DNA of 64,000 bases from Aestuariivirga litoralis (GTDB lineage Bacteria > Pseudomonadota > Alphaproteobacteria > Rhizobiales > Aestuariivirgaceae), in NCBI RefSeq assembly GCF_003234965.1, contig NZ_QKVK01000001.1, positions 310,001 through 374,000 of the forward strand, in the 5' to 3' direction. A program made the translations under genes and the position numbers. The notes below the pieces were generated by a model that ran no database searches, had not been told where the DNA came from, and was given only the letters and a program-made list of their open reading frames with translations. Positions 1,584-4,067 of this stretch are shown here, one piece after another (position 1 is the first letter of the stretch; every line of letters starts with the position of its first letter).

Positions 1584-1746
1584 GCGCGCCCTCCGGCGCC
1601 CTCACCGCTGGACGTTCCAGACAGCGCATCACATTGATCGATGAGGCAGACGTACGCTTCGACGCCCGTGGTGCGTGGAATGTCGTCGCTGCCATCCGGA
1701 TGACGCATCCAGACTGGGGTCACACTATTTTTTTGCGGAAAACTTC

Positions 1747-1762
1747 TTCCATAAAAATGGAA
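1747..1762. promoter_or_regulatory. Perfect 16-bp palindrome upstream of the radical SAM cassette
   Basis: TTCCATAAAAATGGAA consists of two 6-bp arms (1747-1752 and 1757-1762) around AAAA. It lies in an unusually AT-rich stretch (about 1725-1800) in the 232-bp gap after rpoH, 53 bp before the start of the precursor-like gene. It could be an operator for a dimeric repressor or an mRNA hairpin. No neighbouring regulator gene is seen. Confidence 0.35.
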
Positions 1763-1815
1763 TGCATGTTAACGTAGCGTTATTCTCCAATTCAGTCTGA
1801 CATGAGGTGCCTGAA

Positions 1816-2403
1816 ATGAAGGTTCCGAATTCGACTGGTCCCGCGCTGACGATCAGCCGGGGGCAGATGCGCGAACGGCTGGCGTCTCTGATGAAGCGAA
1901 TCGAGGAGGTTCCCGACATGAGAGAGCAGTTCCTGCTCGATCCGGCGGGAACCCTCGCCGAGGAGGTCACGGGAGCTTGCGCGAGCCGGCATCAAATTTC
2001 GGAAGTCAACCGGCTCATGTTTGCCATTCTGGCGAATGATGACCTGGTGGAATGGATCGCCGAGTTCGAGCCCAGGCGGAAATCTGCGGCACGTGAGGTG
2101 TTCGTCGAGAACTTTGCAAAGAAGGTCGTGGAACTCGGGGATGCGACCGTGCTGGGAGCGATCATCAGCAATGCGGCGGTCGGCAATGGCTTTCCAGGTC
2201 TCGGGCAGATCGCCTACCAATGCGTCTCCAACGAAACAACGGGCAAGAGGACCTGCACCTGCACACCGGTCGCCAAGGCGTCGCTCGGCCGCGAATACGG
2301 CATCGATCCGGCCACGATCCGCTCCCTCTCCGAGGCGCTGGTGGAACGTGCACGAGAATTGGCGCGAACCGGGCAGCTTGAGCAATTGAACGCGATCATG
2401 TGA
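1816..2403 (+). CDS. RiPP-precursor-like protein with NHLP/Nif11-like leader (unknown function)
   Basis: A 195-residue protein of no family I can name with certainty. Residues 17-51 resemble the leader helix of NHLP/Nif11-type precursors: an amphipathic helix and then FLLDPAGTLAEEV (39-51), matching the usual LLADPxxxLxEEG pattern. A second helical part (60-115) follows, then a Gly-rich stretch, Cys136, and a TCTCT motif with Cys147 and Cys149. Another helix ends the protein; the only other Cys is 55. The start is ATG 1816 because TGAGGTG lies 6 bp upstream; a GTG at 1807 is possible. The stop overlaps the next start (TGATG), so translation is probably coupled to the radical SAM gene. It is longer than most precursors, so a protein substrate or partner is an alternative. 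Codons look more AT-rich than in the flanking genes, suggesting acquisition. Confidence 0.6.
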   Translation: MKVPNSTGPALTISRGQMRERLASLMKRIEEVPDMREQFLLDPAGTLAEEVTGACASRHQISEVNRLMFAILANDDLVEWIAEFEPRRKSAAREVFVENFAKKVVELGDATVLGAIISNAAVGNGFPGLGQIAYQCVSNETTGKRTCTCTPVAKASLGREYGIDPATIRSLSEALVERARELARTGQLEQLNAIM

Positions 2404-3476
2404 TGCCCGGTGGTCACACGGCGGGGATTGTCCGGCACAGGACGCTTTCGCTTTTGCCAACGCGGCGCTGCAATGCGAGTTGCCGGAATTGCGGTTCCTT
2501 CTCGGGACCTTCGGCACGTGATGCGCTCGATATCGACGACGTACGAAAGGTGATCGCCGAGGCGCATTCACTCGGGTTCGAATTGGTCGTCTTCACAGGG
2601 GGTGAGGCCACTCTGGCGCCGGATGTGCTGGCAGATGGTTTGCGCCTGGCCCGGGTGCTTGGCCTGCGGACGCGATTGGTGACCAATGGTCACTGGGCCC
2701 AATCCACGGAGGTCGCCATTGCTGAGGCAGAACGCCTCGCGGCCCTTGGTCTTGACGAGCTGAATGTCAGCACGGGCGACGAGCACGCGCGGTTCGTGCC
2801 TCTGTCTTCTGTCTGCCGGGCGGCGGCGGCCAGTTTCAAGGTCTTTGGCACCGCCGTCATCACGGTCGAACTCAGGTCGGCGCGCCCGATCACCCGCAAG
2901 ACGGTGCTGGATGCCTTGCGCGCCGAGGGGCTGAGCGTGGATGAGATCGCCGCACTCAAGATCATCGAGTCGCCGTGGATGCCCGTCAGTCCCTTCAGGA
3001 CCGAAATCTATGAAGCCGGCCATGCAGTTGATCGCACCAACCTCAGCATGAGGTCGGGATGCGAGAGCATCCTCGAGACCTATACTGTCGAGCCCGATGG
3101 CGTGGTCACGTCCTGCTGCGGCCTTGGCGCCAACATCATTCCGGAGCTTCACGTCGGGCAGGTGAGCGACCCTGACGCGCTTGCCACCGCGGTGGACCGC
3201 TCCGAGGGCGATCTCCTCAAGCTGGCAATCCGCTACATGGGGCCGGAGAAGATACTGGCCTGGGCCGCCTCGCTTGATCCGGCCATCGATTGGGAAGGCA
3301 TGTATGCGCATAACTGCCAGGCCTGTCACCGGCTCTATCGCGACGAGCGCGTCAGGAGCGTCATCGCCCGTCACCTGCAGGACATCGAGACAAACATCCT
3401 TGCCGCGGTGGTCTTCGATGAGGCGCTCTACCCGTCCGTCATTGCCGATGCAGCGAGAGTGTCGAAGAGCGGCTAG
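2403..3476 (+). CDS. Radical SAM protein with twitch/SPASM-like C-terminus, putative peptide maturase
   Basis: A 357-residue protein. Cys23, Cys27 and Cys30 form the CxxxCxxC motif that binds the SAM-cleaving [4Fe-4S] cluster, and GGE at 66-68 is the SAM-binding motif. The C-terminus has Cys220-x12-Gly-x4-Cys238, which fits the Cx9-15Gx4C signature opening twitch/SPASM domains, then Cys239 and a C305xxC308 pair. It therefore probably binds an auxiliary Fe-S cluster. Such enzymes typically modify peptides (RiPPs) or proteins by radical chemistry. The ATG at 2403 overlaps the stop of the precursor-like gene; an alternative GTG lies at 2400. No transporter, protease or immunity gene follows: the next gene is convergent, 9 bp away. 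The substrate is inferred only from the adjacent gene. Confidence 0.8.
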   Translation: MPGGHTAGIVRHRTLSLLPTRRCNASCRNCGSFSGPSARDALDIDDVRKVIAEAHSLGFELVVFTGGEATLAPDVLADGLRLARVLGLRTRLVTNGHWAQSTEVAIAEAERLAALGLDELNVSTGDEHARFVPLSSVCRAAAASFKVFGTAVITVELRSARPITRKTVLDALRAEGLSVDEIAALKIIESPWMPVSPFRTEIYEAGHAVDRTNLSMRSGCESILETYTVEPDGVVTSCCGLGANIIPELHVGQVSDPDALATAVDRSEGDLLKLAIRYMGPEKILAWAASLDPAIDWEGMYAHNCQACHRLYRDERVRSVIARHLQDIETNILAAVVFDEALYPSVIADAARVSKSG

Positions 3477-3485
3477 TCGTCCGGT

Positions 3486-4067
3486 CTACTGGAAAATCCC
3501 CTTGGCGCGGGGCGTGGCAAAGAAGATCTGCACCGCCCAGATATCGCCGTCCCGCTCGATGACGCCGGTGGACACGAAGGCGAAGCTGCGATTGACCATG
3601 TTCCTGCGGTGCGGGCCGCTGTCCACCCACTGCTGGAACAGCGCCCGCGTCTTCTGCGCGAGGGAGCCGTCACGCACGGTCTCGCGCGCGGCATTCTCCC
3701 CGATCGAGGGATATTTCGTGACGTCGCCGACGAAAGCGGCCATGCGGCCCTGGAAGCTCATGCCGGTGGAGGATGAGTGCCCCATGAAGCCATTGAGCAT
3801 CATATCTGCGGCATGTGCCCGCGCGGCCTGCTGGAAGGCCGCGTCGGCCTGCACCGGGGCCTTGCCCTTGCCGGCCCGATAGGCGTTCAGAAGGTCAACC
3901 AGTTCCGCTTCCAGGTCCGGCCGATAGCGCGAGCCCTTGGGCGGATGGGCGGCAAGTCCTTCGGCATAGGCAAGATAGGGGCCCGCGGCGGCCGGGTTCA
4001 CCCCGGCCACCAGGCCGAACAGCCCGAGGCAAAGACTGCGGCGGCTCAGGTGGCAGGGCTCCGTCAC
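3486..4067 (-). CDS. Secreted CAP-domain (SCP/PR1-like) protein, probable Tat substrate
   Basis: A 193-residue protein. The N-terminus has twin arginines in LSRRSLCLGLFG followed by a hydrophobic stretch and AAA, which points to Tat export. The rest is a bacterial CAP domain: LLNAYRAGKGKAPVQ near the start, a helix ending in HAADM, NGFMGHSS, PSIGENAA, and the C-terminal SGPHRRNMVNRSF and FVSTGVIERDG. These His/Glu positions normally line the CAP cavity. Bacterial CAP proteins act outside the cytoplasm but rarely have defined functions. It converges on the radical SAM gene with only 9 bp between stops and no evident terminator; functional linkage is not implied. Confidence 0.85.
   Translation of the reverse strand: MTEPCHLSRRSLCLGLFGLVAGVNPAAAGPYLAYAEGLAAHPPKGSRYRPDLEAELVDLLNAYRAGKGKAPVQADAAFQQAARAHAADMMLNGFMGHSSSTGMSFQGRMAAFVGDVTKYPSIGENAARETVRDGSLAQKTRALFQQWVDSGPHRRNMVNRSFAFVSTGVIERDGDIWAVQIFFATPRAKGIFQ

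Follow-up and report, generated by a model that had tools for sequence, protein, structure and literature searches.

A YydG-related radical SAM enzyme coupled to a long precursor in Aestuariivirga litoralis: a probable two-gene RiPP-type cassette

The known RiPP radical SAM epimerases are divided, in a 2021 review, into two unrelated sets: EpeE/YydG, which act on short peptides, and PoyD-type enzymes, which act on proteusin precursors. The same review names Cys223 of YydG as the proposed hydrogen donor (PMC8326336). Mutation of this residue is reported to abolish or disturb product formation by YydG. The epipeptide system YydFG (EpeXE) of Bacillus subtilis is described as having a 32-aa leader and a 17-aa product. 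Proteusins with PoyD-type epimerases (e.g. polytheonamide) have a long leader and D-residues introduced by a radical SAM enzyme, which carries the RS cluster only and a C-terminal RRE. Sactipeptides and ranthipeptides likewise depend on a radical SAM enzyme acting on a gene-encoded peptide. Among the matches listed, literature titles and abstract openings gave no description of the pair reported here or of a long-precursor YydG-like family.

The pair lies near the start of a 64,000-nucleotide stretch of the A. litoralis genome (the window). An earlier note on this DNA had proposed that a precursor with a leader is coupled here to a radical SAM maturase, and that proposal is supported. Judged from sequence comparison, the pair is probably a minimal RiPP-type cassette, in which a YydG/EpeE-related radical SAM peptide epimerase would act on a 195-aa substrate. 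Its features are as follows.

1585..3485, no strand: islet of about 1.9 kb, flanked by the sigma factor gene and by the convergent CAP-family gene, present in L002/L042 and missing from six congener sites (L105-L110); its edges are approximate, being taken from alignment ends
1816..2403, plus strand: precursor protein, 195 aa, with related ORFs beside the same enzyme type and a middle that is least conserved
1930..1968, plus strand: FLLDPAGTLAEEV leader motif, residues 39-51, with the F/Y-x-x-(D/N)P pattern common to the Sphaerisporangium, Streptomyces canus and Thermus precursors
2008..2037, plus strand: NRLMFAILAN leader motif, residues 65-74, inside the best conserved segment (residues 61-85)
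2179..2295, plus strand: variable core, about residues 122-160, with Cys136, Cys147 and Cys149 (TCTCT); conservation is lowest in segment 116-160
2403..3476, plus strand: YydG/EpeE-related radical SAM enzyme, 357 aa, assigned from family and PDB matches and the cysteine alignment

The open reading frames bear out the description given earlier, with its 195-residue protein, leader motif and TGATG coupling: the precursor starts with ATG at 1816 and its stop codon TGA (2401-2403) overlaps the enzyme ATG at 2403. The precursor has four cysteines (Cys55, Cys136, Cys147, Cys149), the last two within TCTCT. All of the motifs listed for the enzyme are present, namely C23xxxC27xxC30, GGE at 66-68, C220-x12-G-x4-C238 followed by C239, and C305xxC308. 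Upstream of the pair is a sigma-70 type gene (636-1583), which we take to be RpoH, and downstream, on the minus strand, is a convergent CAP-family gene (3486-4067). Five more neighbours were scanned: genes for a pseudouridine synthase, for an EAL/GGDEF protein, for PPK2 and for adenylosuccinate synthetase, and one whose 268-aa product had no match. Neither a protease, a transporter nor an immunity gene was found among these seven neighbouring genes, in line with the earlier remark that transporter and protease are lacking. Scanning the surroundings of the islet for repeats and promoters yielded nothing useful. The pair had also been said to have AT-richer codons than its neighbours; its GC3 (0.744 and 0.759) is indeed mildly lower than that of the six flanking genes measured (0.809-0.886) but lies inside the spread of 0.59-0.93 across the 43 non-overlapping ORFs of at least 200 aa in the window, a set unfiltered for real genes.

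The same pair was found in a second Aestuariivirga genome (G031), with identities of 85% for the precursor and 83-84% for the enzyme. Between these two carriers dN/dS is approximately 0.11 for both genes (0.083/0.770 for the precursor and 0.101/0.930 for the enzyme), which indicates purifying selection on both; the pair is a real unit under purifying selection. The precursor is single-copy in its own genome and was present in 2 of the 199 genomes searched, its own included; 37 genomes of the genus are inferred to fall within those 199. In the six congeners whose sites were fetched (L105-L110), the sigma factor and CAP-family genes adjoin, with protein matches that end 19-129 bases apart and sigma factor proteins 91-97% identical, whereas in the window and in G031 about 1.9 kb separates the two genes. 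In the enzyme tree both Aestuariivirga proteins were placed in a branch with eight actinobacterial members (support 99/100), from a Streptomyces canus plasmid, Sphaerisporangium and six genomes of its order. The fork that parts the Aestuariivirga enzymes from S. canus is weaker (90/88). This placement inside an actinobacterial branch and the empty site in congeners fit horizontal gain, which is the probable origin of the pair; loss in the congeners is a possible alternative.

Nothing beyond the pair was found in common with the actinobacterial loci. When the first 12 kb of the window were compared with the eight loci, every ORF match at E 1e-8 belonged to the pair or to its antisense shadows; both genes matched for L043 and L099-L102, and the enzyme alone for L033, L097 and L098. 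Apart from the near-identical locus pairs L097/L098 and L101/L102, one further ORF match exists among the actinobacterial loci themselves (L099/L100). The enzyme is rare. When it was used as a single query against 385 genomes of the class, the enzyme itself was the only full-length match. A nine-row enzyme profile matched, at E 1e-20, 5 of 299 genomes from the phylum, of which two apart from its own genome were strong (410 and 350 bits). It also found matches in 5 of 346 genomes of Sphaerisporangium's phylum, where only Sphaerisporangium itself was strong, and in 12 of 297 genomes of Sphaerisporangium's order, with seven strong, Sphaerisporangium included. A scan of genome contigs with two peptide patterns gave at least 13 loci. 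The window enzyme had no match in the phage collection, neither window protein alone had a confirmed match among viral contigs, and the precursor had no plasmid match; from the phage and viral-contig searches with single proteins, a phage origin of the window pair is unsupported. With an alignment of nine enzymes as query, 14 viral-contig loci were recovered, seven of them with long matches.

The assignment of the enzyme rests on its kinship to YydG. Pfam places it above cut-off for Radical_SAM only; SPASM, to which it had been likened as a family, reaches 10.2 bits against a cut-off of 21.5 (E 0.97), and a Nif11-class maturase model is touched by the radical SAM core only (32.2 bits against 725). 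A viperin-like defence function was rejected, the PADLOC matches spanning about 85 residues of the radical SAM core. In both NCBIfam and the PDB the nearest relative is YydG. The top-scoring NCBIfam model, TIGR04078 for the YydG peptide epimerase, gives 68.8 bits over residues 20-316, nearly the whole enzyme, and stays under its equivalog cut-off of 300. Eleven family enzymes were compared with this model; eight scored 68.8-99.8 bits, all far under the cut-off, and three, all members of the window's branch (L043, L099, L101), were not matched at E 1e-15. For several family enzymes the best stretch is the N-terminal half only. The PDB match to YydG was obtained at E 3e-11 with phmmer and at E 2.8e-26 over residues 11-313 with a profile of nine relatives.

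The cysteine set extends this kinship. C23, C27, C30, C220, C238, C239, C305 and C308 are kept in 25 of 25 aligned rows, which are 24 family enzymes of our selection and YydG itself. Weak or partial sequences were excluded (plasmid Allochromatium, Collinsella and Tropicibacter; L047-L054; L058, L059; L068-L071; L078-L082; L090-L096), as were near-copies (L042, L084-L086, L088, L089). In the profile alignment the second cysteine of C238-C239 falls on residue 248 of the YydG chain, which becomes Cys223 when chain Met26 is taken as residue 1. Counterparts of the RS-cluster cysteines (C23, C27, C30), of the auxiliary-cluster cysteines and of Cys223 are thus all present, and the profile alignment agrees except at C220. 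This residue is paired with a YydG cysteine by MAFFT but not in the HMMER profile alignment, where it lies beside a gap and the YydG cysteine is three residues off. Among 26 generic radical SAM proteins that served as a control (29 loci, 26 of which had a usable ORF), one had a CC pair 150-300 residues past the first RS cysteine. This cysteine set and the kinship to YydG together point to epimerisation as the chemistry. The low TIGR04078 score, the three branch members without a match and the long branches of the enzyme tree, in which YydG itself is a very long one, would also suit a different radical SAM reaction (C-C crosslinking, desaturation or decarboxylation) that evolved from the YydG scaffold in this branch. 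The invariant C239, the putative hydrogen donor, speaks against it, as a crosslinking or desaturating enzyme should not need this residue, and we regard such a reaction as unlikely.

Further searches examined the precursor, using 3,498 ORFs of 105 partly redundant sequences. With phmmer, the window precursor matched the two Sphaerisporangium copies and four other actinobacterial ORFs adjacent to the enzyme (E 1e-15 to 6e-11), and more weakly those of S. canus (4e-4) and Thermus (8e-4). A profile of eight close precursors strengthened these matches and added L097, L098, L061 and Rhizobium (E 5e-6 to 0.0085). The earlier note had let its proposal hang on adjacency in other genomes, and there too the pair is adjacent; the proposal stands. 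Up to E 10 the profile returned family precursors and a single place off any enzyme, L100:6155-6523 (E 0.0078). This place is downstream of an enzyme and is perhaps a second precursor, decayed or read in the wrong frame. The profile detects a precursor at 13 of the 24 tree loci, seven by construction and six more at L033, L034, L039, L061, L097 and L098, while at the other 11 a candidate was assigned from position and look alone. At L039 the precursor is about 3 kb upstream of the enzyme, with other genes between. The Calidithermus precursor ORF (L044, around 4318), missed by the profile, starts late relative to that of Thermus, and its leader may be in another frame.

The precursor can be divided into a leader (about residues 1-121), a variable core (about 122-160) and a conserved tail (about 161-190), with approximate borders. 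Mean pairwise identity, calculated over four lineages and segment borders of our choice, runs along the protein as 0.167, 0.233, 0.260, 0.393 (61-85), 0.206, 0.144 (116-160) and 0.311 (161-190). In a low-confidence AlphaFold model (mean pLDDT 45.8), helices lie within 15-121, strands at 129-138 and 145-153, and a further helix at 165-184. A lag-2 test gave p 0.02 for the best stretch of the window core, chosen afterwards, with no clear alternation, and p 0.002 or less in chosen stretches of L034, L039, L040 and L060; as p 0.004 was also obtained in the L101 leader, single low values are only suggestive. An alternating-residue core in the window precursor is not supported by this test.

Great length, purifying selection (dN/dS 0.11) and conserved N and C parts would also fit a partner subunit or regulator of the enzyme. 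This is very unlikely: conservation is lowest in the middle of the protein, length and core vary strongly among the related precursors, and distant relatives have Asn-repeat or hydrophobic stretches at the core position. Moreover, Sphaerisporangium corydalis (L043, 3246-4936) has two tandem precursors with slightly different cores ahead of one enzyme. We infer that the adjacent protein is the substrate. The two tandem precursors have twin-arginine-like N-termini.

Cys136, Cys147 and Cys149, or residues near them, had been singled out as the ones modified, and an enzyme forming thioether or other crosslinks through these cysteines, as in sactipeptides or ranthipeptides, was considered. All three cysteines are kept between the two Aestuariivirga precursors, and the low-confidence model sets them on two neighbouring strands. 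Within the branch, however, they occur only in these two proteins. Six precursors (L033, L098, L099, L100, L101, L102) have no cysteine, the two copies at L043 carry a single cysteine each, away from the core, and that of L097 has one at residue 128, missing in its near-twin L098; yet the enzymes paired with these cysteine-poor precursors are 45.8-48.8% identical to the window enzyme and keep the YydG-type set. Together with the sub-threshold SPASM score, this makes crosslinking through these cysteines improbable in the window pair. As a common chemistry of the branch it was rejected, the core cysteines not being kept.

Comparison with the described classes places the pair outside each of them, as the earlier note had anticipated. 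The enzyme is YydG-like, but the pair is not an epipeptide system: the enzyme is far under the equivalog cut-off, the precursor is 195 aa long with a conserved tail, in contrast to the short epipeptide precursor, and protease and ABC transporter genes are missing from the seven neighbours scanned. Nor is it a proteusin. The window precursor has no NHLP match (0 NCBIfam families), and the epimerase is of a different type, with five further conserved cysteines and YydG as best match rather than the RS cluster only of PoyD-type enzymes. An NHLP/Nif11 leader, as first suggested, is poorly backed: the window precursor passes no NCBIfam or Pfam cut-off (DUF7623 at E 0.051 is the only hit), has no Nif11 match in either collection, and the NHLP-related TIGR04509 is weakly matched by 3 of 23 family precursors (best E 0.00026), with two scores of 18.8 and 21 bits under the cut-off of 34. 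The pair is thus set apart from Nif11-leader peptides, and from sactipeptides and ranthipeptides by the lack of core cysteines conserved across the branch and by the SPASM result. The SdpC/SdpI system of toxin and immunity protein was also compared. Family precursors gave three weak matches to SdpC (TIGR04032; E 0.2, 0.19 and 0.027), none known to reach the cut-off, and SdpI-family proteins are found at the Thermus, Calidithermus and Klebsiella loci; the window has no such neighbour or match.

More distant relatives were found in Thermus, Klebsiella, Rhizobium, proviral contigs, lactic acid bacteria and a haloarchaeon. The precursor cores are Asn-alternating in Thermus, Calidithermus, Klebsiella and Rhizobium, where they resemble polytheonamide-type cores, and hydrophobic, as judged by eye, at the Eleftheria, Luteimonas, proviral, lactic acid bacterial and haloarchaeal loci. 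Several distant precursors have twin-arginine-like starts, seen by eye and under model cut-offs. Besides the SdpI-family proteins, a bPH_5 protein is encoded at five distant loci (above cut-off in three), and methyltransferases are neighbours at distant loci. The cores and the SdpI/bPH_5 neighbours suggest that the distant relatives are membrane toxins. The window's branch has neither Asn-alternating or hydrophobic cores nor SdpI/bPH_5 neighbours.

In Thermus aquaticus pTA14 (L034, 2599-7270) and Calidithermus roseus (L044, 4318-8695) the YydG-like enzyme adjoins a precursor with a long Asn-alternating core, and a methyltransferase is encoded nearby together with proteins of the SdpI and beta-lactamase families; these loci look like a polytheonamide-style pathway built on a YydG-type enzyme. 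Plasmids of Rhizobium leguminosarum (L039, 287-6174) and Klebsiella sp. (pmk4; L040, 2859-7785) combine the same enzyme type with Asn-alternating precursors and methyltransferases, the Rhizobium locus having a second radical SAM gene, whose B12-binding match is weak, and the Klebsiella locus an SdpI-family gene. Viral contigs L083, L088 and L087 have the enzyme, with a twin-arginine-like precursor downstream of it, and a bPH_5-like membrane protein; two of the contigs, L083 and L088, have these genes next to phage-tail-like genes, by eye, in a cargo-like way.

In the proposed mechanism, the leader would recruit the enzyme, and the 5'-deoxyadenosyl radical would take the alpha-hydrogen from residues of the variable middle segment, the predicted site of change. 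Cys239 would then give a hydrogen back from the opposite face, producing D-residues, while the auxiliary-type cysteines C220, C238, C305 and C308 may hold a cluster for redox turnover. By analogy with the relatives, a membrane-active or competitive role of the product is the leading guess; as a counterpoint, the core is polar in the window's branch, and the locus showed no gene for immunity or export. A more speculative possibility, on balance doubtful, is a new class of D-residue proteins: in this two-gene, self-sufficient cassette, a YydG-related epimerase would edit a polar, fast-evolving segment within a whole protein that keeps its leader and tail, without cleavage or export. Such a protein would possibly act inside the cell or at its surface and not as a secreted small peptide.

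The family would bridge the two sets of RiPP radical SAM epimerases, as it places YydG-type enzymes beside long precursors. It ranges over actinobacteria, proteobacteria, Deinococcota, lactic acid bacteria and a haloarchaeon, some members having Asn-alternating cores and candidate immunity genes. Within this range, the two-gene cassette of A. litoralis is a compact test case for how an epimerase chooses its residues.
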